Assembly (NCBI GenBank): GCA_014191195.1
Contig: BJGZ01000018.1
Coordinates: 1 to 42,216 of the forward strand
DNA: 42,216 bases
DNA from: Chlorobiota bacterium
Lineage (GTDB): Bacteria; Bacteroidota; Ignavibacteria; Kapaibacteriales; UBA961
Direction of reading: 5' to 3'
The notes under the pieces are model-generated. The model was not told where the DNA came from, did not search any database, and saw nothing but the letters and a program-made list of their open reading frames with translations. Position numbers and translations under genes: made by a program. Shown here piece after piece: positions 23,623-37,427 of the stretch; the first letter of the stretch is position 1, and the number at the start of each line of letters is the position of its first letter.

Positions 23623-24909
23623 ATGAAAACAACCAATAAGCTAAGATTTTTTGATATCACAATGATGGTGATAAGCCTAGTTATTGGAATGGGTATTTTT
23701 CGTGCACCCGCAACAGTAGCTTTAAGGGCAGGCAATGAAACCTTATTTTATGCCGCTTGGATTTTGGGTGGCATTATTGCAATGTGTGGAGCTCTTGGTT
23801 TTGCTGCAATTGGACGCAGAATGCCTGTTTCAGGAGCATATTATAGAATATTTGCTCAGGCATATCATCCTTCTATTGCATTTGCAATTAATATTTTAAT
23901 ACTTGTTTCTAATGCCGCTTCTTCTGCAGGTGTTGCAATTATTGGTGCAGAATATATCAGTGCATATTTTCCAGGTATACATACTTCTATATTAGCATCA
24001 ATGATGATTATCGCTTTATTTGGGGTTAATCTATTAGGATTAAGAACAAGTGCTAATGTCCAAAATATTCTAATTGGAATAAAGGTGATAATGCTTTTCT
24101 GTGTTATTTCTGCAATTGGAATAGTTCCAGAAATGCAAAGCACAGCACCTTTGATACATAATCAAGGTTTGATGGAATCTTTTGGTTTGGCTTTAATTGC
24201 TGTCTCTTTTACATATGGTGGATATCAGCAGACGATTAATTTTGGTGGAGATATTGTAGATAAAGGAAATACATTACCAAAAGCAATTATACTTGGTGTT
24301 ATCATTATTATTTCTCTCTATCTATGTGCTAATGCTGCTTATGTTCATGTGATAGGTTTTTCGCAATTAGCTCAGGCAAAATCGATAGCAGCTATTGTAG
24401 TTCAATCACTCTTTGGAAATGCTGGCTCTTTACTATTAAGTGCAGTATTGGTAATATCTGTTTTTGGATATATAAATGTATCGATGTTATCTAATCCAAG
24501 GGTATTGCAAGCCATGAGTGAAGATGGTGTATTACCCAAAACTTGGGCTAAAAGTAAAGCAGAAAAAGGTGTCCATGTTTTTGCTTTAATTATATTCACA
24601 CTATTAAGTATTATTTGTGTTTTTGCAGGAAAATCTTTTGAAACGATACTTAACTATACGATATTTTTAGATAGCATTGGATTAGCTGTAGGAATATCTA
24701 CTTTATATCGTTTAAAAGGAGAAAAAATCTCTCCATTAATTCATGCTGCTACCGGATTCTTCATTTTGTCTTGTCTTTATACAAGCTGTAATATTTTTAT
24801 TTTTGATACACAAGCTGGTGTATATGGATCTGCATTATTTGCAGCAATTTTTATTTGTGGTTGGTTTATCACAAAGAAATCTCAAGTAGTTACACATCAT
24901 AATGTATAA
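23623..24909 (+). CDS. APC-superfamily amino acid permease
   Basis: A 428-residue integral inner-membrane transporter with about twelve hydrophobic segments. TM1 has the unwound-helix motif IGMGIFRAP (APC consensus GxGIF), followed by ALRAGN; TM6 reads SFTYGGYQQTINFGGDI, and EDGVLPKTWAK lies in the cytosolic loop, as in LAT/serine-threonine exchanger-type (LATs, YkfD-like) permeases. Probably imports or exchanges neutral amino acids; the substrate cannot be assigned. Its last 13 bases overlap a convergent small ORF. Confidence 0.88.
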   Translation: MKTTNKLRFFDITMMVISLVIGMGIFRAPATVALRAGNETLFYAAWILGGIIAMCGALGFAAIGRRMPVSGAYYRIFAQAYHPSIAFAINILILVSNAASSAGVAIIGAEYISAYFPGIHTSILASMMIIALFGVNLLGLRTSANVQNILIGIKVIMLFCVISAIGIVPEMQSTAPLIHNQGLMESFGLALIAVSFTYGGYQQTINFGGDIVDKGNTLPKAIILGVIIIISLYLCANAAYVHVIGFSQLAQAKSIAAIVVQSLFGNAGSLLLSAVLVISVFGYINVSMLSNPRVLQAMSEDGVLPKTWAKSKAEKGVHVFALIIFTLLSIICVFAGKSFETILNYTIFLDSIGLAVGISTLYRLKGEKISPLIHAATGFFILSCLYTSCNIFIFDTQAGVYGSALFAAIFICGWFITKKSQVVTHHNV

Positions 24910-25118
24910 AATACCTGCACTCCTGTTTTTGCCTCACCTGCAAAGTGATACAGAAATTCTGCTGAATATTGATAGCTAACACTAATATGAGGAAATTCTG
25001 GCAATCCTAATCCCATTGAGAGTTTCCATATATCTTGCCCATCACAATACTTTATACTTGAAAATACAGCGGTTAAAAAAGAAATATTCTTTGAATTAAT
25101 TTTATAATGAACAGACAT
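24897..25118 (-). CDS. Small ORF resembling the end of an outer-membrane beta-barrel
   Basis: A 73-residue frame without signal peptide. It alternates polar and hydrophobic residues (FPHISVSYQYSAEFLYHF, then TGVQVFYTL), ends in a barrel-like aromatic/hydrophobic strand, and sits 15 bases after the gamma-glutamyltransferase stop on the same strand. It may be a remnant of an outer-membrane protein or a genuine short product. The end overlaps the permease gene by 13 bases. Confidence 0.4.
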   Translation of the reverse strand: MSVHYKINSKNISFLTAVFSSIKYCDGQDIWKLSMGLGLPEFPHISVSYQYSAEFLYHFAGEAKTGVQVFYTL

Positions 25119-25133
25119 AAAATATAAAACGTA

Positions 25134-26855
25134 TTATTCACCCGAAGCAGAATCATCGCCACGATTATCACCAATTCCTTCAATAGATGCATCTGGAGCT
25201 ATATAAATTGCATCGATGCGCCCAAATGCTGATCTCTGTTTTAGAGTATAACCAAATTGTTCTAATTCTTTTTTTGTAGCAGTATCAAAACAATCTGCTT
25301 CATGATAAAGAATATCTGGCAACCATTGATGATGAAATCTTGGACTATATATGGCTTGCTGTAAAGACATATTAAAATCTATCATATTAATAAGCAATTG
25401 ATACATAGATGTAGTAATTGTTGCTCCACCTGGTGTACCAGCAATTAAAAATAAAGAGTCATTTTTCTGAACAATTAATGGTGTCATAGAGCTTAACATT
25501 CTTTTTCCAGGCTGAATAGCATTTGCTTCTGCACCAATTAATCCGAACATATTTGGTGTTCCTGGTTTTACACTGAAATCGTCCATTTCATTATTTAAAA
25601 CAAAACCTGCCCCTTTTACAATTACTCTAGATCCATAATTTCCATTTAAAGTAGTAGTAACAGATACTGCTTGTCCATATGAATCTACAATTGAATAATG
25701 TGTTGTTTCTTCTGAAGTATATTGTAATGTTCCTTCTTTCATCTGCTTGGAAGGTATCGTTTTAGTTGGATTAAAAGTAGATATTCTGTGTTTTGCATAT
25801 TTTTTTGCTGTTAATCCATATATAGGAACATGATAATAATCTGCATCTCCGCAATAGACAGCTCTATCGGCATAAGCTCTTTTTTCGGTTTCTGCCAGCC
25901 AATGAATAGATGCTGTAGTATGAAATCCCAATGAATGAAGATTAATTGTTTCACTCATATTCATCATTTCATTTAGTATCATACCTCCTGCTGAAGAAGG
26001 GGGCATTGTATAAACAGTAAATGAATCTCTATAAGTAAATTCGATAGGTTGATGCCAAATGGGTTTATATTGTGATAAGTCTTTATGAGTAATGATACCA
26101 CCACCAGATTTCATTTCTTTTACTATTAAATCCGCAATTGCTCCTTTATAAAAACCATCTTTACCATATTTTTGGATAATTCTAAGAGTTTTAGCTAAAT
26201 CCTTTTGGACAATTTTATCTCCAGCTTTCCAAGGAATATCTTGATAAAAAACTGTCTGATGATTATTCAAACGTTTGAAGTCTAATCTATTATTATTTAA
26301 TTCTTCCGCTTCTTTTTCAGTAAGTAAAAATCCATTTTCTGCATATGAAATAGCAGATTGTAAAAGAGTTTTCCATGGTAATGTACCATTCGCTTTATGT
26401 GCATCGTATACGCCTGCAACCGAACCTGGAATACCACTTGCTAGATGTCCATCCTTGCTTACACTATCATTAATATGTCCATTTTGTTGAATATACATAT
26501 TCCTACTAGCTAGTTCTGGTGCTGTTTCACGAAAGTCTAATGCTTGAATATTATAATGATTTCTTCTGTATATCAGATAACCTCCGCCCCCAATATTCCC
26601 TGCTCTTTGATATACAACTGCAAGAACAAAATGGACAGCTACCATTGCATCTATGGCATTACCTCCCTTTTTTAGTATTATCAGTCCTGCTTCTGATGCA
26701 AGCGGATGTGCAGTTACAACCATGTGCTTTTTGCCCTTAACCTGCTTATTGATTGTATATGGCTGTGCATTTACTTCACAAGAAAACATGACAATAAAGA
26801 GCATAAAAAGATATATGTGTTTTCTCATATTGATATGTATCATATGGTATTTCAT
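25134..26855 (-). CDS. ggt: Gamma-glutamyltransferase
   Basis: A periplasmic N-terminal-nucleophile enzyme that cleaves glutathione and other gamma-glutamyl compounds. It has 573 residues with a signal peptide (ending EVNA-Q, residue 30). Seen: VVTAHPLASEAGLIILKKGGNAIDAMVA, the glutamate-binding ALDFRE (R109), and the autoprocessing site EETTHYS, in which T384 becomes the new N-terminus of the small subunit, followed by VSVTTTLNGNYGS. GTPGGATI near the C-terminus is the conserved Gly-rich loop. ATG codons at 26855 and 26828 are both possible starts; the later one gives a more compact signal peptide. Third from the end of the packed minus-strand run. Confidence 0.95.
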   Translation of the reverse strand: MKYHMIHINMRKHIYLFMLFIVMFSCEVNAQPYTINKQVKGKKHMVVTAHPLASEAGLIILKKGGNAIDAMVAVHFVLAVVYQRAGNIGGGGYLIYRRNHYNIQALDFRETAPELASRNMYIQQNGHINDSVSKDGHLASGIPGSVAGVYDAHKANGTLPWKTLLQSAISYAENGFLLTEKEAEELNNNRLDFKRLNNHQTVFYQDIPWKAGDKIVQKDLAKTLRIIQKYGKDGFYKGAIADLIVKEMKSGGGIITHKDLSQYKPIWHQPIEFTYRDSFTVYTMPPSSAGGMILNEMMNMSETINLHSLGFHTTASIHWLAETEKRAYADRAVYCGDADYYHVPIYGLTAKKYAKHRISTFNPTKTIPSKQMKEGTLQYTSEETTHYSIVDSYGQAVSVTTTLNGNYGSRVIVKGAGFVLNNEMDDFSVKPGTPNMFGLIGAEANAIQPGKRMLSSMTPLIVQKNDSLFLIAGTPGGATITTSMYQLLINMIDFNMSLQQAIYSPRFHHQWLPDILYHEADCFDTATKKELEQFGYTLKQRSAFGRIDAIYIAPDASIEGIGDNRGDDSASGE

Positions 26856-26869
26856 CTTTTTATAGATAC

Positions 26870-27490
26870 TTATTGTGTATATCCTAATGATTGTAAGCCA
26901 TTGACAATATCTGCTTTACTTTTAAATTTTGATTTATGTATTCTCCCAATTTCCCATATGCAATCACATCCACCATTGACATTGCTACTAATATCATTCA
27001 AGAATAAAAGCTTTTTGGGTAGCTTATGTGTATAATCATAAATAGATGTAGAATATAGTTTGCCATGCACACTAGGATTATTGATATCCCAAGTAGTGAG
27101 AATTATCAGTTCTTTTTCTTTGTCATTATCAGCATTAGCAAAAAATATATGTTCGATTTTTGGAGGACTTTCCTCTTCAATTAACGTATCAATAATTGAT
27201 ACTGTATAGTTTTTTTTATAAGAATCAGATACATATAATGTGGCAATTACCCTTGTATATGCTGTTTGTTGTGGATCATCGCTCAATGGGAGAAGATATG
27301 TTTCCGAAAGAAAAGCAATAAGCACAGAAGTATTATTCCACGCTGTTTCAATCACTTTATCATATACTATAGATGAAGAGGGCTTAATTCTAACAATAAA
27401 AGATTCAGCAGATTCGCCCTTGTATCTGCTTATTTTTTGGGCATTTACATTAATGATACAAATGAATAAAAAGAGGAATAATCTGAACAT
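26870..27490 (-). CDS. Exported hypothetical protein
   Basis: A 206-residue protein with a signal peptide (MFRLFLFLFICIINVNAQ). The mature part has ESFIVRIKPSS, a segment FFANADNDKEKELIILTTWDI that resembles calcium-binding-like repeats in other exported proteins, and a late Cys-rich NGGCDCIWEIG. Not recognised. 14 bases upstream of ggt and 29 downstream of the sulfatase, same strand, so probably part of the operon. Confidence 0.7.
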   Translation of the reverse strand: MFRLFLFLFICIINVNAQKISRYKGESAESFIVRIKPSSSIVYDKVIETAWNNTSVLIAFLSETYLLPLSDDPQQTAYTRVIATLYVSDSYKKNYTVSIIDTLIEEESPPKIEHIFFANADNDKEKELIILTTWDINNPSVHGKLYSTSIYDYTHKLPKKLLFLNDISSNVNGGCDCIWEIGRIHKSKFKSKADIVNGLQSLGYTQ

Positions 27491-27519
27491 AAATATTACT
27501 CTAAAAAAGTAAATGCTTA

Positions 27520-29124
27520 TTATTTATGTATCAATATCGCTTTTTTGAATTGTAAATCATCATGTATAAGTGAAATTGTTTTAAGCCCAGCAGCAACATT
27601 ATTCATATCAACTTGAATTGAATATTGATGAGGAAGTATTTCTACAGATTGCTCTAATTTTCCATTAGCGGAATATATATGTACAGTAGCTTGCTTTTGT
27701 AATGGCTTATGAAACTGAATAGTTAATAAGGATGATTGGCTATCAAAATAGGAGGTAAAATATTCATCAGTATCAGAATTTTGTACAGACAAAGCAGTGC
27801 AAAATGCACCAGTTCCAACTAATTTCGACATTTCTCCGCATAGATATTCATAATTAGTTTTATCATTTCCAGATAAGTTTGCTTGTAGTAAATCAATGTC
27901 TTCTTCGGGGTCTTTTAATAGATTAACAAATTTTTGAGTTCCATTATCATAGTCCATTAATTTATACTCTTTATTTCTCATAGTTTTTCCATCACCAGCA
28001 ACTGGAGTTAGCTTAAATACCTCAGAAAAAACCCAATCTCTAATAATAGAATCTTGATTATAAATTATTGGTAATAAGCTTTTGGAATCTACGGGTTTAG
28101 ATTGCAGAATATTCTGTTTCCAATTAGAAAAACCCATAAGCTCTATGATTGTAGCAAATAAATCATGAGTATTAACTAATGCATTAGAATATCTACCAGG
28201 ATTTTTGACAGATGGTCCAGAAATAATAAAAGGAACAGAAATACCTTCTTGGCTTATACTACCTTTTGCACCACCTTTCACTTGTGAAACTTTCATATCG
28301 CTACCATTATCGCCAATAAATATAATATCTGTGCTGTCCATTATATTTTGTGCTTCTAGGGTATCAAAAAGTCTTCCGATTTCTTTGTCTAATGCCTCTG
28401 ACATTGCTTTAAAATATGGGACAACACTTGTAGCAGTATCAGAAGGAATTCCTTTTAATTCTGTATAAGAATGAAGATTACTTGGTGGTAAATGGAAAGG
28501 AGAATGTGGAGCATTATAAGCTAGCCATAAAAAGAATGGTTTATTTTGTGGAACAGATTTAACCCAATCGATAGCATTATTAGTTAATTCTGTAGTTGCA
28601 TATGTATTACATACTGCAGACTTACCATCTTTAATTTTATTCCAAGAATAAAAACTAGGAAGTTGTCCAGCAAAATTACCTTCATAATGGTCATATCCTA
28701 AAGTTAAAGGTAAAATATAATTGGTTTGAGGCATTGTGGTATGAAGATGCCATTTACCAATATTAGCTTTTGCTATGCCATTAGGTTTAAAGATATTTAG
28801 CATACGTGGAATTGTCATTTCTGCTGTATCTAATACTCTAGAGCCTTGGCCACCAACTGCATCACCTACACCAGTTCTAAAGCTATATCTGCCTGTTAAA
28901 ATGCCTGCCCTAGTTGGAGAACATAATGGATTAGACCATGCTTTATTGAATACTATTCCCTTTGCTAAAAGACGTCTGATATTGGGTAATTTGACTGTAT
29001 CTCGGTGATTTTCAATAAACCCACAGTATTCGCTGCTTAAATCATCTGCAATGATCAATACAACATTTCTTTGAGCGATGATACAGGTATAAGAACACAA
29101 TAAACACAGTAGAAATAGTTTCAT
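27520..29124 (-). CDS. Secreted sulfatase (arylsulfatase family S1)
   Basis: Hydrolyses sulfate esters; 534 residues. The signal peptide ends about residue 17. The N-terminal metal-binding NVVLIIADDLSS (D27, D28) and the active-site sequence C68-SPTR within LCSPTRAGILTGRYS (Cys to be converted to formylglycine by an anaerobic- or FGE-type maturase) are clear. GDNGSD near residue 273 supplies further metal ligands, and the usual sulfatase C-terminal subdomain follows. The last ~75 residues (ATVHIYSANGKLEQS ... AILIHK) look like a T9SS sorting domain, though the PNP motif is absent. 17 bases after the YHYH gene. Confidence 0.9.
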   Translation of the reverse strand: MKLFLLCLLCSYTCIIAQRNVVLIIADDLSSEYCGFIENHRDTVKLPNIRRLLAKGIVFNKAWSNPLCSPTRAGILTGRYSFRTGVGDAVGGQGSRVLDTAEMTIPRMLNIFKPNGIAKANIGKWHLHTTMPQTNYILPLTLGYDHYEGNFAGQLPSFYSWNKIKDGKSAVCNTYATTELTNNAIDWVKSVPQNKPFFLWLAYNAPHSPFHLPPSNLHSYTELKGIPSDTATSVVPYFKAMSEALDKEIGRLFDTLEAQNIMDSTDIIFIGDNGSDMKVSQVKGGAKGSISQEGISVPFIISGPSVKNPGRYSNALVNTHDLFATIIELMGFSNWKQNILQSKPVDSKSLLPIIYNQDSIIRDWVFSEVFKLTPVAGDGKTMRNKEYKLMDYDNGTQKFVNLLKDPEEDIDLLQANLSGNDKTNYEYLCGEMSKLVGTGAFCTALSVQNSDTDEYFTSYFDSQSSLLTIQFHKPLQKQATVHIYSANGKLEQSVEILPHQYSIQVDMNNVAAGLKTISLIHDDLQFKKAILIHK

Positions 29125-29141
29125 ATAATAGTTTTTTTATG

Positions 29142-30494
29142 TTAATGAATGATATGAATAGATTGTGTAAAGCTAGATTTTCCTTTTCCAATAGTAAGGA
29201 TATAAGTTCCTGAATAGATCATAGATATATCTGCATAAGCAATAGAACTTCCTTGTTTTAAGGTTGATTCATGCACTATAATTCCTTTCATATCAGTCAG
29301 GATTATTGGTAAAGATTCGGTAATGAGTTGTCCAGCTTGTATAATTAACAAATCATATGTAGGATTTGGGAAAACATTCATAGCAAGGGAATATTGATCA
29401 TTGATATCTGTAGCAGAAGTATACACTGTAGTGGGTTCACTTATTGATTGCACTTTTTGTGTATTTCTTATTCCATAAAAGTTTGGGCCAACCGCATAAG
29501 GATAAGCAGAATTCCAGTTTTCATCTACTGTACAGAAATAAGCATAAGTACCATTAGGATATTCGGGTGTTTTGCAGAATCTTCCATTATATTCATCTAC
29601 ATAATCAGATTCATTAGGATGGCTAATAAATTCATAGTCTTCACGAAAATAACCCAGAGGATAAGTAGCATTAACTGGCGGACCATCTATTACATCTTTA
29701 CCATCTGCATAATGAGTTCTTTCTGTTATGGCTCTTAATTGAAAGCTAGACTTCATTCTGACAATATCACCGGTACCATCTGTATTTTTAAAAGCATAGG
29801 CACCATAGATTGGAAATCCATCATAAGCAAAGCCTAATAATGGAGAATGTGCTGCGGGATTTATAGCATATAATCCATCTGCATCGTATAGATTACACAC
29901 ATCATAGATATTTTTTCTATCTAATTTAAATGTTGATGGATTTTGATGATGATGATAATTCCCCATGGCAGGATGTCCTTTTGCACAATCAAAACCAATA
30001 CGTTCTGCAACTACTGCATCTCTATTCCATATTCTATCACCCATTCCTTGTAATGGACCACCACGCAGCCTACCTTCAGCATTATTCCATGAAACTGCAT
30101 CACCGTAGTTAAAAAGTGCAACTCCATTAATAAAAATCCCAATATTTCCTCCATTTGTAGCTGAAGGTGCACCAGTATTTTTTTGAGGAATTAAGGGAAA
30201 TTTAAAAATGCCATTTTGGCTTTGCGCTACCGATGGATTACCATCTTGAAATGGGCCTGTTGGATAGGCAGGAATTCCATTTGTAGAAATATAAACAGAT
30301 GAGTTCGAAAACTGAACTTTCTGAACATTTGCAAGAATATTATTACTAATTGCAGTAGAATTACCTTTCATATAATACATACCCATCTGAGTAGTATTTT
30401 GCAACCAATTACTTATAATAGGATTTGTTTGTGCCTGAATTGTAATAGAACTCATTAGCACCATACTGAACATAATGATACATTTCATTTTCAA
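29142..30494 (-). CDS. Secreted YHYH-domain protein with T9SS sorting domain
   Basis: A 450-residue secreted protein. Signal peptide 1-21. Residues ~24-355 form a YHYH domain (Pfam YHYH family, function unknown), with the name motif here as HPAMGNYHHHQNP (residues 174-186) and nearby conserved DGFPIYGAY, WNRDAVVAERIGFDCAKG and THYADG. Clustered His suggests a metal site (inference). Residues ~370-450 are a T9SS type A domain (VFPNPTYDLLIIQAG, ending SIHIIH). It is a close paralogue of the upstream gene, and is separated from it by a single base and from the sulfatase by 17. Confidence 0.88.
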   Translation of the reverse strand: MKMKCIIMFSMVLMSSITIQAQTNPIISNWLQNTTQMGMYYMKGNSTAISNNILANVQKVQFSNSSVYISTNGIPAYPTGPFQDGNPSVAQSQNGIFKFPLIPQKNTGAPSATNGGNIGIFINGVALFNYGDAVSWNNAEGRLRGGPLQGMGDRIWNRDAVVAERIGFDCAKGHPAMGNYHHHQNPSTFKLDRKNIYDVCNLYDADGLYAINPAAHSPLLGFAYDGFPIYGAYAFKNTDGTGDIVRMKSSFQLRAITERTHYADGKDVIDGPPVNATYPLGYFREDYEFISHPNESDYVDEYNGRFCKTPEYPNGTYAYFCTVDENWNSAYPYAVGPNFYGIRNTQKVQSISEPTTVYTSATDINDQYSLAMNVFPNPTYDLLIIQAGQLITESLPIILTDMKGIIVHESTLKQGSSIAYADISMIYSGTYILTIGKGKSSFTQSIHIIH

Positions 30495-30495
30495 T

Positions 30496-32943
30496 CTATT
30501 CCATGTCTTTTTGAATAATTATTTTTTTTGTTTGAACAGTATTCTCATTAATCATTTTTATAAAATATGTTCCTGAATATAATGTTTGAACATCTATAAA
30601 AGCGATTGTGCTGCCTTGTAATACTTTTGTTTTGGAAACAATATTTCCTTTAATATCATAAAGTTCTATCTGTATGTCTTTGTTTACTAATCCAATTGCT
30701 TGAATTATCAAAAGTTCATTAGCAGGATTTGGAAAAACAGTTGCAAATATTTCGTCGCTTGATTCTTCTTCAATCGAAGAAATAATCATGGTATCTGCTT
30801 GTATAACACATACTTTAGTATCATTAACACCTTTTCCAGAAACAGTTACATAAGCATTTCTACTTTTACTTTCTTGATTCATTTCTGCATTTAATATGAT
30901 GATATCATTCCCATTACCAGTATTCTTGTTTACTGTTAACCATGAATCACTAGTTTGTACAGCCCAAGTAGTATTTGCAGATATTCCAAATCCTTTAGAA
31001 TTAGATGCTGCAGCTGGTAAATAAATTGTATCGACAGAGACAGTTAATGTTGAAAGTACAGTATCCTTTTGAATGATTGTAATGGGATAATCTGGCAAAC
31101 CTAACGATGATATTATTACTTTTCCAGAACGCACTTTTTTACTGTTATTTACTGCAGCTTGAACGAAGATCTCACCATTATTTGAGCCTTTATTACTATT
31201 AATACTTAACCAAGATTGGTTTACTTTTGCATACCAATCAACATTAGATGTAATAGTAATTTTACCAGTACTGTTATCTGAAGCAAATAAGTACACAGTA
31301 TCTGGAGAAGCCTTTATGCTTGGTTTAATGATTACAGTATCTGATTGATTTATAGTTACTACCTTTTGGGCTAATAGTCCGCATTCAACAGTAATTTTAG
31401 CAGTTCTAGGAGCATTTCCTTTATTTTCTTCTGCTGTCAATTTGATAGTTCCATTGCCATTCCCTTGCACAGGATTTACAATCAGCCAAGGTTGATCGCT
31501 AGAAGCTGTCCACTGAGCATCACTTTGAACATTGAAAGACACATAATCATTAAAAGCAGCAGGTAAAGAAATCAAAGAGAGAGATACATTTAATAGTACA
31601 GAAGTATCTTTTTGGGTAATAGTAATAAGTTGATCGGCTAAACCTGTAGAACTCACTTTTACAGAAGCATTTCTTGGGGTTTTAGACATATTTTCTGAAG
31701 CAATCACAGTTATAGTTGCATTTCCATTACCGCTTGTTTTGTTAAGGGTTAACCAAGTTTGATTGCTAGAAATTGTCCAATTGACATTAGAACTAATAGA
31801 AAACGATATATAATTAGATGCTGCAGATGGTAATGAAAGAGTATTTGGGCTTACACTTAATGTATTTGCCGAGGGAGTATACACTGTTGTAGGTTCTGTT
31901 ACAGATACAACTTTAGCAGCTGATTTTACACCATAAAAGGTTGGTCCAACAACATATGGATAGGCTGAATTCCAATTGTCATCAACGGTACTGAAATATG
32001 CATATATACCATTTGGATATTCTGGTGTAACACAAAATCTTCCATTATGGCTATCTAAAAAATCAGATTCTGTATGAGAAATATATTCATAATCTTCTCT
32101 AAAATATCCAAGAGGATAAGTGGTTGATACTGGTGGACCATCTATTACATTTGTACCGTCTGCATAATGTGTTCTTTCGGTAATTGTTCTTAATTGATAA
32201 CTGGATTTTATTCTTACTATTCCGCCCGTTCCATCGGTATTTTTATAACCATATGCTCCATAAATAGGAAAACCATCATAAGCATATCCAATTAAAGGAG
32301 AGTGAATGGCTGGATTAATTGAATATAAACCATCTGCATCGTATAAAGAACATATTGAAGAGATAACTTTCTTATCTAATTTAAATGCTGATGGATTTTG
32401 ATGATGATGATAATTTCCCATGGCAGGATGCCCTTTTGCACAATCAAAACCAAGTCGTTCTGCAACTACAGCATCCCTATTCCATACATTATCTCCCATA
32501 CCGCCAAGAGGGCCACCCTGCAATTTATTCATAGAGAATTTCCATGAAACACCATCTCTATAATCAAAGAGTGCAACTCCATTTATAAAAAGTCCAATAT
32601 TACCTCCTGTTGTTGCTGTTGGAGTACCCATATTTTGTTGAGGATTTAATGGAAATTTAAAAATTGCATTCTGATTTTGTGCTTGAGATGGATTTCCATC
32701 TAAAAAAGGTCCTGTAGGATAGCTTGGTATTCCTTTTGTTGAAATATATACTGAATTAGCAGAATATTGAACTACTTGTACATTGGCAGTAATATTATTG
32801 GAAATTGCAGTAGAATTTCCATTCATATAATATGATCCCAAAGTGGTGGTATTCTGCAGCCAATTTCGAATTATCGGATTTGTTTGTGCAAACAAATCAA
32901 AAGTGAAACACAGGAATATAAATAAGTATAAAAGTCTTTTCAT
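30496..32943 (-). CDS. Secreted YHYH-domain protein with four BACON repeats and T9SS domain
   Basis: An 815-residue secreted protein. Signal peptide 1-20. Residues 21-355 are a YHYH domain strongly similar to the downstream paralogue, with the HPAMGNYHHHQNP motif at 172-184. Four BACON-type beta repeats follow (about 361-446, 447-535, 538-627, 632-717), each with a strand pair, a W-x-x-x/W-L core and a closing ITITQKD-like strand; BACON domains usually bind carbohydrate or act as spacers. Residues ~733-815 are a T9SS C-terminal domain (VFPNPANELLIIQ). Located between the di-heme cytochrome gene (17 bases) and the second YHYH gene (1 base). Confidence 0.88.
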   Translation of the reverse strand: MKRLLYLFIFLCFTFDLFAQTNPIIRNWLQNTTTLGSYYMNGNSTAISNNITANVQVVQYSANSVYISTKGIPSYPTGPFLDGNPSQAQNQNAIFKFPLNPQQNMGTPTATTGGNIGLFINGVALFDYRDGVSWKFSMNKLQGGPLGGMGDNVWNRDAVVAERLGFDCAKGHPAMGNYHHHQNPSAFKLDKKVISSICSLYDADGLYSINPAIHSPLIGYAYDGFPIYGAYGYKNTDGTGGIVRIKSSYQLRTITERTHYADGTNVIDGPPVSTTYPLGYFREDYEYISHTESDFLDSHNGRFCVTPEYPNGIYAYFSTVDDNWNSAYPYVVGPTFYGVKSAAKVVSVTEPTTVYTPSANTLSVSPNTLSLPSAASNYISFSISSNVNWTISSNQTWLTLNKTSGNGNATITVIASENMSKTPRNASVKVSSTGLADQLITITQKDTSVLLNVSLSLISLPAAFNDYVSFNVQSDAQWTASSDQPWLIVNPVQGNGNGTIKLTAEENKGNAPRTAKITVECGLLAQKVVTINQSDTVIIKPSIKASPDTVYLFASDNSTGKITITSNVDWYAKVNQSWLSINSNKGSNNGEIFVQAAVNNSKKVRSGKVIISSLGLPDYPITIIQKDTVLSTLTVSVDTIYLPAAASNSKGFGISANTTWAVQTSDSWLTVNKNTGNGNDIIILNAEMNQESKSRNAYVTVSGKGVNDTKVCVIQADTMIISSIEEESSDEIFATVFPNPANELLIIQAIGLVNKDIQIELYDIKGNIVSKTKVLQGSTIAFIDVQTLYSGTYFIKMINENTVQTKKIIIQKDME
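30793..31863 (-). repeat. Four tandem BACON-domain repeats within the long YHYH gene
   Basis: About 86-90 codons per repeat, with shared pattern S-x-x-x-L-PAA, NWxx-WL-, GNG, RxAxVxVS, and a final TI-QKD/ QSD. Diverged at the amino-acid level, so old rather than recent copies. Confidence 0.8.
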
Positions 32944-32960
32944 ATAAATACTTTATGAAT

Positions 32961-33962
32961 TTATTTTAAATAAGAAAATTGTTTATTAAATACAAAAGAT
33001 GAATCGTTTAATGTAAATAAAAATGACATTAATTCAACTTTTTGCTCGGAACTTAATTGAAGTGGTTTTTTTAATTCTTTTGGAAGATGTAATGAATAAT
33101 TAATACCAGAAGTATAATGTTGAATTACCTTTGATAGTGTTTTAAATCTACCATCGTGCATATAGGGAAATGAATATCTCAAATTTCTTAAAGTTGGAAT
33201 TTTAAAATACCCAGAATCTGCACTTTGCAAAGAAATTGATACTCTTCCATAATCAAGTAATGTACTATCTAAAGGCAAACCATTGTTTGAAAAAGAATAA
33301 GAGCTAAATAATGGTTCTGTATGACACGCATTACAGTTCTGCAAAAAGACTTCATATCCTTTTTTTTCTTTTTCTGTAAATAATACTAAACCTTTTTTTA
33401 CACTATCATATTTTGAATTTGAAGAGATAAATATTAATTCAAATTGTGATAAAGCTTTTAATACATGCTCGGTTTTTATTGAGCTATCGTTAAAAGCAGA
33501 AAAGAAATAGTGTCTATAATTACTATTATTCCTTAACCTTGAAATAACATTTTCTAATGAATTATCCATTTCATTTGGATGAGTTATAGGCGCTAATGCT
33601 TGCATATCTAAATGATTAATAGCACCATCCCACATAAATAGTTCTTGCCAAGCAAGATTCATTAATGCAGGAGCATTTCTTTTTCCTATTCTGTCATAAA
33701 TTCCATGGCTTAAATCATGATCAACATGGGCAAATGCATTGTATTGTGAATGACATGAAGCGCAAGAAATAGAACTATCTGCTGATAAAATTGGATCGTA
33801 AAACAATCTTCTACCCAATTGTATTGTTTCTTTTTTTAATGGATTATGAGAAAAATTATAAACAGGTTTTGGAAAATAATTTGGATAAGTAAATTCACTA
33901 GATTCAAAAGAAATCAACAGAATGGCAAAGCCGAAAGCACAAAAAAGAAATATATATTTCAT
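32961..33962 (-). CDS. Di-heme cytochrome c peroxidase/MauG family protein (MbnH-like)
   Basis: A 333-residue periplasmic protein with an N-terminal signal or anchor (MKYIFLFCAFGFAILLIS). Two heme-c sites: CASCH (C67, C70, H71) and CNACH (C210, C213, H214). Typical family segments: LGRRLFYDPILSADSSISCASCH, RNAPALMNLAWQELFMWDGA and a late PTLRNLRYSFPYMHDGRFKTL. Its start overlaps the MbnP-like stop by 4 bases, so the pair is translationally coupled. In methanotrophs MbnH modifies a Trp of MbnP to kynurenine; by context this one is a candidate MbnH, but a plain H2O2-reducing peroxidase cannot be excluded. Confidence 0.9.
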   Translation of the reverse strand: MKYIFLFCAFGFAILLISFESSEFTYPNYFPKPVYNFSHNPLKKETIQLGRRLFYDPILSADSSISCASCHSQYNAFAHVDHDLSHGIYDRIGKRNAPALMNLAWQELFMWDGAINHLDMQALAPITHPNEMDNSLENVISRLRNNSNYRHYFFSAFNDSSIKTEHVLKALSQFELIFISSNSKYDSVKKGLVLFTEKEKKGYEVFLQNCNACHTEPLFSSYSFSNNGLPLDSTLLDYGRVSISLQSADSGYFKIPTLRNLRYSFPYMHDGRFKTLSKVIQHYTSGINYSLHLPKELKKPLQLSSEQKVELMSFLFTLNDSSFVFNKQFSYLK

Positions 33963-34651
33963 TGTAGGATTGTAAACATTGTAGACATACTTTCTGACAT
34001 TTCTTTTGCTTTTTTTCCGGGCGACATGATCTGATATTCATTACTTAATTGCACTTTTTCTAATGCTTTTTGTACATGCATTTGAATCTCAATACTTTGA
34101 GATCTTTTAAATGCACATGATATGTTTTGTGCTGTTTGATAAGGTGCTTGATATCCACCAATATGAAATTGAAATAGATTGTTGCGTCCTGGACACTTAG
34201 GAGTAATTCCTTCAATTTTCATATTAATATATCCGCTATTCCATGCCCAATACATGCCATTCAATGGGTCTAGATCACCATCCATAATTCCGTTTATATT
34301 CGTTACACTATCTGTACCAAGAAGAAAAGAGATAGAGTCCGCATAAAAAGATGATGGAATTGGAAATGACAAAGCAGTTGTGTTGGCATTTTCTATATCT
34401 ATCAGTTGATATCTATTAAAATGTAGAACAGTATCTTTTGAATATAATGTGAATTTTCCCAAATAAAACTTGCATTCTTTAAAAGTTACTTGTTCTCCTT
34501 GCAATGAATCTATAACCGGATGATCAATTTGTATTATTTGTCCATAATACATGGGCTTTATGTTGACAGTAAATGCTTGAGAATATAATGCTTTTGTATA
34601 AAAAAGAAATAGTACAAAAGGCAGTAAATATGTAATAAAATTACAAGGCAT
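33959..34651 (-). CDS. MbnP-like periplasmic copper-binding protein
   Basis: A 230-residue protein with a signal peptide (residues 1-25, ending LYSQ). The MbnP family core is present: a beta-rich N-terminus, GDLDPLNGMYWAWNSGYIN (W135 and W137), and FQFHIGGYQAPY (H163). MbnP from methanotrophs binds copper with help of a kynurenine made from a Trp by the partner di-heme enzyme; W135 and W137 are the obvious candidates here. First gene of a packed minus-strand run, its ATG 26 bases after the upstream gene's terminator region. Confidence 0.82.
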   Translation of the reverse strand: MPCNFITYLLPFVLFLFYTKALYSQAFTVNIKPMYYGQIIQIDHPVIDSLQGEQVTFKECKFYLGKFTLYSKDTVLHFNRYQLIDIENANTTALSFPIPSSFYADSISFLLGTDSVTNINGIMDGDLDPLNGMYWAWNSGYINMKIEGITPKCPGRNNLFQFHIGGYQAPYQTAQNISCAFKRSQSIEIQMHVQKALEKVQLSNEYQIMSPGKKAKEMSESMSTMFTILQ

Positions 34652-34671: not shown

Positions 34672-34703
34672 AAAAAAAAAGAGGAAATGAATATTTCCTC
34701 TTT
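34672..34703 (-). terminator. Rho-independent terminator after the LamG/Ig protein gene
   Basis: 11-bp stem (34678-34688 with 34693-34703) and 4-base loop; on the minus strand it runs into nine T. It lies 19 bases after the LamG gene stop and only ~27 bases before the MbnP-like ATG. Confidence 0.85.
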
Positions 34704-34722
34704 CAATAACATATGTGATGAT

Positions 34723-37383
34723 TTAATGTTTCATCAATTTAAAAGGCTTTTGATTATCAATATGGATAAAATACATTGAAGATTGTAAATGATCTATATT
34801 GATTTCAGACGATTCATTGATAGTTCCTTTTAATACCATAGTTCCAAGTAAATCTGTGATATAAAAATCAGTTTTTTGCCCAGAATTTGGTACTATAAAA
34901 AATATCTTATCATGTGCTGGATTTGGATATACTGTAATTGCATCTTCAGAAACTGAATGAACAATACCAGAAACAGATTTTATAAAAAGAGTAACTGATT
35001 GAGAAGTATCAATACAATTATTGGATGAGGTTATGCAGCGAAACTTTTGATTATTATTTGTATTGCTAACATAACGTATGAGTAAAGTGTCTTTATTAGC
35101 GCCTGAATATTGTCCGGCATTTGTAATATTCAAGAAACCAACTCCAAAATCTGTTTGCCATCTATAATTTGCCATTGGGTCATTATGTTTTACAGCGAAA
35201 AAGGCATCTTCTCCTGCATTTACAGAAATATCGAAAGGATCGTTTTCTATACTTCCGCACACAGTTAATGTAGCAATATTAGAAGTATCGGTGCAATCAT
35301 TGCTTTTAACTAAACATCTAAAGGATTGATTATTATTTGAAATAGTGATATTATTAATCGAAAGTACACTATCATTTGTACCAGAGTATTGTCCTAAGTC
35401 ACTAATTTTTTGGAAACCTTGTCCTAAATCAGATTGCCATTGATAAAATGCTTGTGGATCGCTATTTCCGACACTTAATTGAGATGTTTTTCCAAAAGGA
35501 GCAAAAGTACTTTTTGGTTGTTTTATTATACTACCGCATACGGATAATGTTGCTGGAAGCGAAGTATCTGAACATATTGATGAATTAGCAATGCAGCGAA
35601 ACTTATATCCATTATCTGACCATGTAACTGCATTGATCTTAATAATATTTGTTTTTGAACCGCTAACTCTACTATCATCATTTAATGTATTCCAACCTGC
35701 ACCAATATTAATTTGCCAAGCAAAGATTGCAGAAGGGTCATTGTGAACAATGGCAAACTGAGCATTATCGCCAATTTTGACATTTTGCGTGAAATTTTGA
35801 TTTAAGATACTGCCACAAACTTTCAATAAAGCCTTTTGCGTAGTATCAATACAAGAAGCAGATTTTATGATACAGCGGAATTCATAAAAGTTATTTGTGA
35901 AAGATAGATTAGCTACTTTAAGAGATTTAGTTGTTGAACCTGAATACTGGAGAGTATCCTTTATATTTTTAAAACCAGTTCCATTATTTATTTGCCATTG
36001 ATACTCTGCTAAAGGATCTGTATGATTAGCCGTGAATGTAGCTGATGCGCCTTTTGCAGCATTTACATTTTCTGGACTGGATATTAAAGCCCCACAAATA
36101 AATATATTAACAGGCACGATAGTATCTGAACATACACCAGATTTAACATAGCATCTATACGTATGAGTAATTCCGCCTAAATCTTTATTCAATATGGTAA
36201 TTTTAGATGTTTTAGTACCAGAATAAATCCCAGAATCTGCTATAGAAACAAAAGAAGATCCAATCTTTTTTTGCCATTGATATTGAGCAAGCGTATCGGT
36301 ATGCCCAATAACAAAACGAATTGTATCTTTTCCTAATGCTTCAACACTTGTCGGAACTTGAAAAATCTTGCCGCATACAGTCATTGTTAATGCAGAAGTT
36401 GTATCACTACAAATTCCAGATTTTACAATGCAACGAAATGTATAATTGCTAAACACAATTTTACATGTATTGATATGTAAAGTATCAGCTTTAACACCAG
36501 TAAAATTGGGTAAAGTATCTGAAATATTATTGAATCCACTTCCAATATTTACTTGCCATTGAAAACTAGCATTTCCATCTTTTGAATACACCCAAAATTT
36601 GTCGGGTGCATTAATATCAGGGAAAATATTACCAGACTGTTTAAACACTAATCCATCACCACCGGAGTACGGTGCATCTTCAACAATCGTAGCATTACCT
36701 TCTAGTTTTAAGTGATTATTATTGCCACTGATATCAAGAACAATACTATCTGCACTCACGGCATTAAACGTATATAATACTTTGGTATCAGCATCTGATT
36801 CTAAGTTTTGTGGAGGCGTAAAATCTTGTGTATATCGTATGGTTCTAGAAACTCTAAAATCATCTATATGAGCATTTAAAAACCAAGATTTATTTGGATC
36901 TACAAGATCAAAAGCAGCACCAATTCTGGCGCTATTATCTACATAATTCCAATCTGGAGTACCTTGATTTGTTGTTCCAATAAGTAAACCATTTCTGTAG
37001 ATTTTTAATTTTGCAGTTTGTCCATTCCCTGTAATAGCATAATGTTCCCATGTTCCTTGTCTGATTCCAGCAGAATCTGTACCATAAGTGTTCGTATTTT
37101 TATATACCATCCTAACACCAGAACATGGATATACTCCCATATATGTGCCATTTCCATATTGACTCCATATCGCAGGATATCTGGTAGGATTATTACCTAA
37201 TTTAATATAGAATTCAATGGTAAAAGTAGATTGATTTGGTATCGTATCAAAAAATGAACTAGAAATTTTTCCATAATCATCAGTTCCATCTAAATACAAA
37301 GAACCATTACATAATGTTTTTTGAGCATATGATTGCGCATAAAAAACAGTTATCATAAATAGTAAGAAAAATAGTTTTTTCAT
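34723..37383 (-). CDS. Large secreted LamG/Ig-repeat adhesin-like protein with T9SS domain
   Basis: An 886-residue protein. Signal peptide from the ATG at 37381-37383 (MKKLFFLLFMITVFYAQ...). A LamG/concanavalin-like domain follows (about residues 25-235: SLYLDGTDDYGKIS, FTIEFYIKLG, WEHYAITGNG, HIDDFRVSRTIRYT, LYTFNA). Then six tandem Ig-like modules (about residues 250-800), each with a YQWQ-type strand, a YxFRCxVKS strand containing Cys, and a following C-x-DT with Val/Thr strands to the next (I/V)CG, i.e. a regular Cys pair per module. A T9SS domain (VYPNPAHDKIFF) ends it. Probably a surface adhesin or binding protein. An ATG 13 codons upstream is less likely to be the start. Confidence 0.85.
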   Translation of the reverse strand: MKKLFFLLFMITVFYAQSYAQKTLCNGSLYLDGTDDYGKISSSFFDTIPNQSTFTIEFYIKLGNNPTRYPAIWSQYGNGTYMGVYPCSGVRMVYKNTNTYGTDSAGIRQGTWEHYAITGNGQTAKLKIYRNGLLIGTTNQGTPDWNYVDNSARIGAAFDLVDPNKSWFLNAHIDDFRVSRTIRYTQDFTPPQNLESDADTKVLYTFNAVSADSIVLDISGNNNHLKLEGNATIVEDAPYSGGDGLVFKQSGNIFPDINAPDKFWVYSKDGNASFQWQVNIGSGFNNISDTLPNFTGVKADTLHINTCKIVFSNYTFRCIVKSGICSDTTSALTMTVCGKIFQVPTSVEALGKDTIRFVIGHTDTLAQYQWQKKIGSSFVSIADSGIYSGTKTSKITILNKDLGGITHTYRCYVKSGVCSDTIVPVNIFICGALISSPENVNAAKGASATFTANHTDPLAEYQWQINNGTGFKNIKDTLQYSGSTTKSLKVANLSFTNNFYEFRCIIKSASCIDTTQKALLKVCGSILNQNFTQNVKIGDNAQFAIVHNDPSAIFAWQINIGAGWNTLNDDSRVSGSKTNIIKINAVTWSDNGYKFRCIANSSICSDTSLPATLSVCGSIIKQPKSTFAPFGKTSQLSVGNSDPQAFYQWQSDLGQGFQKISDLGQYSGTNDSVLSINNITISNNNQSFRCLVKSNDCTDTSNIATLTVCGSIENDPFDISVNAGEDAFFAVKHNDPMANYRWQTDFGVGFLNITNAGQYSGANKDTLLIRYVSNTNNNQKFRCITSSNNCIDTSQSVTLFIKSVSGIVHSVSEDAITVYPNPAHDKIFFIVPNSGQKTDFYITDLLGTMVLKGTINESSEINIDHLQSSMYFIHIDNQKPFKLMKH

Positions 37384-37419
37384 GATATGTCCAAGGATGT
37401 GATTAGCTATATAACAAAT

Positions 37420-37427
37420 CAAATTTA
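37420..37427 (-). promoter_or_regulatory. Candidate -7 box for the LamG/Ig gene
   Basis: The minus strand reads TAAATTTG (TAnnTTTG consensus), 36 bases before the chosen ATG, in the intergenic space shared with the divergent pnt operon. No exact TTTG at -33. Confidence 0.3.

Follow-up and report, generated by a model that had tools for sequence, protein, structure and literature searches.

A recurrent gene unit linking an MbnP/MbnH-like pair with secreted YHYH proteins in Bacteroidota: a candidate system for metal handling

Gene content of the operon

The 42,216-nucleotide stretch of contig BJGZ01000018.1 analyzed here (the window) comes from a freshwater Chlorobiota bacterium of the order Kapaibacteriales (genome G000; nearest relative, the sister genome G304). 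It carries a compact, putative minus-strand operon in which an MbnP-family protein and an MbnH/MauG-like di-heme protein are followed by two YHYH-domain proteins with sorting domains of the type IX secretion system (T9SS), a sulfatase, a small exported protein and a gamma-glutamyltransferase (Ggt; Table 1). Across genomes, MbnP, a MauG/MbnH-type enzyme and YHYH form a recurrent unit, grouped far above chance. To our knowledge, MbnP/MbnH pairs outside methanotrophs have no known client or purpose. We likewise know of no experiment on YHYH, a domain without known function.

Seven intact genes occupy the minus strand between 34651 and 25134 and are never more than 29 bases apart; after the 4-base overlap of the first two genes the spacing is 17, 1, 17, 29 and 14 bases. 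The first-pass annotation of this DNA had reported this overlap, which is confirmed, within a run of eight packed genes, of which the eighth (24897-25118) does not hold: aligned with a whole 172-codon open reading frame (ORF) of G304 (L169:6063-6581) it shows two large deletions and is a decayed remnant. All seven intact genes are under purifying selection relative to G304, with ratios of nonsynonymous to synonymous substitution rates (dN/dS) of 0.12-0.31. The start codon of YHYH protein 2 is TTG, and an ATG lies at 30488.

Table 1. Features of the operon and its upstream boundary, in window coordinates
Feature	Coordinates	Strand	Evidence
MbnP-family protein, 230 amino acids, Sec-type signal	33959..34651	-	Pfam MbnP PF20243, E 5e-36
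MbnH/MauG-like di-heme protein, 333 amino acids	32961..33962	-	Pfam CCP_MauG, E 2e-51; 4-base overlap with MbnP
YHYH protein 1, 815 amino acids: YHYH domain followed by four copies of BACON and a type A T9SS sorting domain	30496..32943	-	Pfam, TIGR04183
YHYH protein 2, 450 amino acids: YHYH domain, T9SS sorting domain	29142..30494	-	Pfam, TIGR04183, structure model
Type I sulfatase, 534 amino acids, CSPTR signature	27520..29124	-	Pfam Sulfatase, 156 bits
Exported 206-amino-acid protein	26870..27490	-	no Pfam/NCBIfam match
Gamma-glutamyltransferase (Ggt)	25134..26855	-	Pfam G_glu_transpept, 517 bits; TIGR00066 above cut-off
73-codon ORF, remnant	24897..25118	-	DNA alignment to G304; no family
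Terminator-like hairpin, 12 pairs and T-tract, between LamG gene and MbnP	34677..34704	-	z -2.9
LamG-domain protein carrying a T9SS sorting domain; precedes the hairpin	34723..37422	-	Pfam Laminin_G_3, Por_Secre_tail

The MbnP protein and its di-heme partner

By sequence comparison, the first two genes are an MbnP/MbnH-like pair. The MbnP product clearly passes the Pfam MbnP cut-off (124.7 bits vs 27) and carries the motif W135-A-W137, with both tryptophans where the first-pass annotation had placed them; among 37 aligned members M133, W135, W137 and H163 are invariant and M209 is nearly so. The di-heme protein scores 175 bits against Pfam CCP_MauG and has its heme sites at CASCH (C67-H71) and CNACH (C210-H214). 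Among solved structures it matches MbnH best (6e1c, E 1e-36), with MauG and the di-heme peroxidases behind, and this match, together with the invariant WxW and His of the 37 MbnP sequences, bears out the original naming of the pair. In 53 of 53 pairs the MbnP and MauG-like genes lie 10 bases or less apart. In M. trichosporium the first Trp of the WxW motif is reportedly converted to kynurenine by MbnH, and copper binding is said to depend on that kynurenine.

The peroxidase match (1iqc, E 1e-33) nearly equals that to MbnH, as would be expected if the di-heme protein were an ordinary cytochrome c peroxidase removing H2O2 and the run a loose collection of secreted proteins. We regard this as very improbable. 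In the alignment with MbnH 6e1c, Tyr283 falls on the equivalent Tyr and, judged from match end points (284 vs 295), it occupies the position of MauG Tyr294, which is Met in peroxidases. Cassette members keep this pattern of two CxxCH hemes and a Tyr, almost all of them having Tyr at the peroxidase Met-ligand position, and the strict pairing with MbnP and a genomic linkage far above chance likewise argue against a peroxidase.

MbnP/MbnH pairs are spread far beyond methanobactin producers (PMC3621798). The window genome holds a second MbnP/MauG-like pair, without YHYH (contig C2, L063:9503-11386). Both of its members begin with signals of lipoprotein type (LASC, LTSC); the two pairs of this genome may therefore differ in their location within the envelope. 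No relative of the MbnP of locus L051 was found among plasmid records.

The YHYH proteins

The YHYH domains of proteins 1 and 2 score 194 and 184 bits against a Pfam cut-off of 25 (PF14240). Both proteins have a Pfam Por_Secre_tail, and the T9SS type A sorting domain TIGR04183 is called at 47.7 and 29.9 bits, respectively (cut-off 23). These domains place the two proteins outside the cell by prediction, in agreement with their earlier description as secreted T9SS proteins. Across 81 sequences H152, H159, H161, D147, D203, D264, D278, W134 and Y158 are invariant, Y158, H159 and H161 being those of the Y-H-x-H motif. An AlphaFold model of the YHYH core of protein 2 built from these sequences reached a predicted local distance difference test score (pLDDT) of 89.7 and a predicted template-modelling score (pTM) of 0.90, replacing an earlier and poor run with 21 sequences (pLDDT 58.7). 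Compared with the PDB the fold had no match (best Foldseek E 0.95; a VIA second look gave no chain with Z of at least 2), and among viral models clear matches were confined to YHYH-bearing proteins of cyanophages and giant viruses.

YHYH proteins that have a MauG-like neighbor and those that lack one share the same invariant His, Asp and Trp residues, so the presumed metal site is independent of the oxidase. This weakens the first-pass proposal that YHYH proteins are targets of that enzyme. A cassette-specific aromatic residue that would mark YHYH as a MauG substrate was sought and none was found. In one locus (L052:8343-10535) the YHYH domain follows an apparent metallo-beta-lactamase-like region (HHLDH) in a 730-amino-acid fusion.

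Linkage of YHYH with MbnP and MauG-like genes

Linkage was scored when an MbnP gene lay within 5 kb, on the same strand, of a full-length YHYH gene. In a phylum sample of 296 genomes, 22 of them with full-length YHYH, MbnP was linked in 7 (five genera, five families) where 0.04 were expected. The order sample (123 genomes, 34 with full-length YHYH) gave 21 linked genomes, or ten when counted by genera, against an expectation of 0.1. Rarity of this neighborhood in relatives had been named at the outset as grounds for dropping the idea of a joint system; YHYH instead has MbnP within the 5-kb limit in 7/22 and 21/34 genomes, and the check did not refute that idea.

The 80 best YHYH loci from a scan of species genomes, a set biased towards window-like YHYH, contain a MauG-like gene in 59 cases and MbnP in 54, the former at position -1 relative to YHYH in 51 and the latter at -2 in 45. 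Partner genes mostly lie five genes away or less and almost never on the opposite strand. Mapped as labels on the YHYH tree, "MauG upstream" shows 19 changes and "MauG downstream" shows 4, counts that contig ends inflate. Repeated gain, loss or rearrangement thus seems to underlie the linkage, a pattern that points to function rather than mere inheritance.

Regulators, oxidases and sulfatases near YHYH

Genes for a CnrX-like protein occur in 33 of the 80 loci and genes for an extracytoplasmic function (ECF) sigma factor in 31, with the recurring order ECF sigma, anti-sigma-like, CnrX-like, MbnP, MauG, YHYH. The CnrX-like proteins weakly resemble Spy, and 13 of the 29 that were scanned match Pfam Metal_resist. 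With these regulator genes ahead of it, the cassette of many relatives is probably under the control of a metal signal in the periplasm. The ECF sigma factor and CnrX-like sensor are absent from the window run.

A multicopper oxidase is present in 12 of the 80 loci, and the YHYH-adjacent multicopper oxidases carry T9SS tails. In the sister genus (G192, L045) the genes for YHYH, multicopper oxidase, redoxin and sulfatase are packed closely together in a single run. The only multicopper oxidase detected in the window genome (C16:40564) is 2.8 kb away from a third YHYH gene. It belongs to a second locus of this theme, a run on contig C16 (L064:7075-13991) that comprises a T9SS multicopper oxidase, a redoxin, a 399-amino-acid unknown protein, a divergent YHYH, HupE/UreJ_2 and Lcl_C (DUF1566-type). 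On a plasmid of Deinococcus sp. KNUC1210 (L189:6794-8870) only four bases separate a distant YHYH gene from the HupE/UreJ gene that follows it, a pairing also seen on contig C16.

A metal theme for the YHYH cassette is well supported by these neighbors, with copper as the likeliest metal. Nickel, cobalt or another metal, handled with a CnrX-type sensor and a HupE/UreJ-type permease, would account for the frequency of CnrX-like (Metal_resist) genes and for the HupE/UreJ genes beside YHYH in the window genome and Deinococcus. MbnP and the multicopper oxidases are copper families, and the MbnP WxW and His are invariant; we therefore think a metal other than copper quite unlikely.

A sulfatase-type protein is found in 13 of the 80 loci, and the sulfatases beside YHYH, from several genera, are mostly 43-63% identical to that of the window, which indicates that the link is real; sulfatase is a recurrent YHYH partner. 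In one locus (L145:977-4615) a natural fusion of 1212 amino acids joins multicopper oxidase and sulfatase with a single T9SS tail and adjoins YHYH and a CnrX-like gene. Sulfatase homologues and metallophosphatases recurring near YHYH, this fusion included, are compatible with a different reading, in which YHYH proteins are hydrolases of the cell surface, dependent on zinc or another metal, and act with the sulfatase on polymers or organic esters; the role of MbnP/MbnH and of the multicopper oxidase would then be confined to supplying or protecting metals for an extracellular set of scavenging enzymes. The same reading draws on the occurrence of YHYH on phage and giant-virus proteins and on a jumbo-phage study that predicted a Zn site of His triad plus Asp, and hydrolase activity, for the domain (PMC7824862). 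The commonest YHYH partners, however, are MbnP, the MbnH-like protein, the metal sensor and the ECF sigma factor rather than degradative enzymes, and no fold relation of YHYH to a known hydrolase was found, so that we consider surface hydrolysis possible but doubtful.

Proposed function

The explanation we favor, with some reserve, is that the operon is a lineage version of a widespread Bacteroidota cassette for metal homeostasis, probably of copper, which combines a kynurenine copper site on MbnP with a T9SS-exported metalloprotein, YHYH. The periplasmic MbnH-like enzyme would oxidize W135 of MbnP to kynurenine, and MbnP would then bind Cu(I) in the vicinity of H163 and a Met. Presumed metalloproteins by virtue of the invariant His triad and Asp, the YHYH proteins would fold in the periplasm, acquire metal there, possibly by transfer between MbnP and the exported proteins, and leave through the T9SS. 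At the surface they may act on metal or metal-dependent chemistry together with the sulfatase and, in the case of relatives, with a multicopper oxidase exported by the T9SS. A periplasmic metal signal would switch the cassette in those relatives that have the ECF sigma, anti-sigma-like and CnrX/Spy-like genes. In outline this retains the metal chemistry that had been suggested for MbnP, MbnH and YHYH, and leaves out Ggt, which had been included in it.

A stronger version would make YHYH a new family of T9SS-exported copper proteins and MbnP a periplasmic chaperone that loads T9SS cargo (YHYH and the multicopper oxidase of relatives) before its passage through the outer membrane, under the CnrX/ECF switch. 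We hold this version to be rather unlikely as it stands; direct loading of cargo by MbnP, suggested by gene linkage, would be its boldest step.

Several points weigh against a copper cassette of the kind proposed. MbnP scores 34.6 bits against the NCBIfam equivalog TIGR04052 (cut-off 140) and the di-heme protein 188 bits against TIGR04039 for MbnH (cut-off 363), although the latter score is still ahead of that for TIGR03791 MauG (168 bits, cut-off 444). Function may thus have shifted; with the Pfam cut-off passed and the equivalog cut-offs missed, the two proteins form a distinct branch of MbnP/MbnH, and on these scores we file the first as MbnP-family (Pfam) rather than as a TIGR04052 equivalog and call the second MbnH-like. 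In the phylum sample 15 of the 22 YHYH genomes have no MbnP nearby, and the linkage P values ignore shared ancestry. No CnrX-like sensor was found in the window genome, in a search run without a positive control. CnrX relatives sense nickel, cobalt or zinc too, and HupE belongs to a nickel permease family, so the metal may not be copper. The Zn hydrolase proposed from the conserved His triad and Asp of the phage domain also points elsewhere (PMC7824862).

The case for placing YHYH in metal biology is nevertheless good. The MbnP-MbnH-YHYH unit, which often has a metal sensor at its head and a secreted multicopper oxidase among its genes, offers a shared and testable hypothesis for both the pair and YHYH. 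It provides the first testable link of the YHYH family to metal handling, probably of copper, and moves the family away from the only published guess that we found, a phage zinc hydrolase. No paper that connects YHYH with copper or with MbnP turned up in our literature search, although a remark on the gene neighborhood in the 2019 MbnH and 2021 MbnP papers is still possible. If the proposal is correct, post-translationally built copper sites would serve the Bacteroidota cell surface.

Comparison with known systems

The window pair resembles MbnP/MbnH of the methanobactin operons (Methylosinus trichosporium OB3b) in combining the WxW MbnP family with an overlapping, paired di-heme MauG-like gene that has the Tyr. 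It differs in falling below the TIGR04052 and TIGR04039 cut-offs, in its T9SS-exported YHYH partner and in the ECF sigma factor and CnrX-like sensor carried by relatives. None of the methanobactin genes mbnA, mbnB or mbnC was present among the ten proteins of the region scanned against Pfam.

CorA/CorB of Methylomicrobium album and MopE/SACCP of Methylococcus capsulatus comprise a copper-repressed, secreted or surface Cu(I) protein with kynurenine formed from Trp, co-transcribed with a di-heme peroxidase-like gene (PMC3912023). The likeness lies in a kynurenine-protein chemistry with a di-heme partner, which for the window pair is putative. The MbnP profile had no PDB match at E 1; by sequence there is thus no solved relative on which to map ligands and no detectable similarity to MopE or CorA. 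Here, moreover, the surface-directed proteins are the YHYH proteins and not the candidate kynurenine protein.

YHYH proteins of jumbo phages, cyanophages and Mimiviridae share the domain and its His/Asp set; the viral proteins are virion-borne and predicted to be Zn hydrolases, whereas those of the window are T9SS cargo in a metal cassette. The row of ECF sigma factor, small anti-sigma-like protein and Metal_resist-family sensor in many relatives is of the CnrYXH type, but this regulator row is missing beside the window operon.

The tail of the run and its upstream boundary

The first-pass annotation had treated sulfatase, unknown exported protein and Ggt as one functional tail. Of these, the sulfatase recurs in other genera while the other two fall outside the conserved unit. 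Among 14 genomes of the family the 206-amino-acid protein is present only in the window genome and G304 (dN/dS 0.19), and Ggt is absent from every other YHYH locus examined except that of G304; with both confined to these two genomes among the YHYH loci examined, we rejected them as parts of the system. The suggestion that Ggt processes thiol-containing ligands found no support in the genome comparison.

The window sulfatase has no T9SS sorting domain call; its relative in L106 has one. Although its CSPTR signature is intact, the complete-looking window genome yielded no match to the formylglycine-generating enzyme (FGE, PF03781) or to the radical-SAM maturase (TIGR03942). GldK-type T9SS proteins, for which an FGE fold is expected, were likewise undetected, so that the search may miss divergent members. 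Copper dependence of FGE was considered as the reason for the sulfatase link and set aside, as FGE is undetected in the window genome yet present in G192, G382 and G384, which have a YHYH-linked sulfatase, and no consistent rule emerges. Three YHYH-linked sulfatases (L089:595-2172, L106:6334-7908 and L113:207-1781) have the signature CSSTR in place of CxPxR and thereby deviate from the maturation consensus that is known. In the sister species G216 a 320-amino-acid protein encoded between YHYH and sulfatase (L043:12226-13188) weakly matches a Cys-loop receptor ligand-binding domain, and the sulfatase gene directly abuts a convergent permease gene.

At the other end, the strong, terminator-like hairpin at 34704-34677 divides the run from the upstream LamG/T9SS gene. 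A search for a Bacteroidota-type promoter pattern on the strand of the operon and an Rfam search gave no match. The hairpin ends some 16-25 bases ahead of the MbnP start, leaving little space for a separate promoter, and it may represent a leaky terminator that separates the LamG gene from the operon. A LamG gene precedes MbnP in G301 too (L172).

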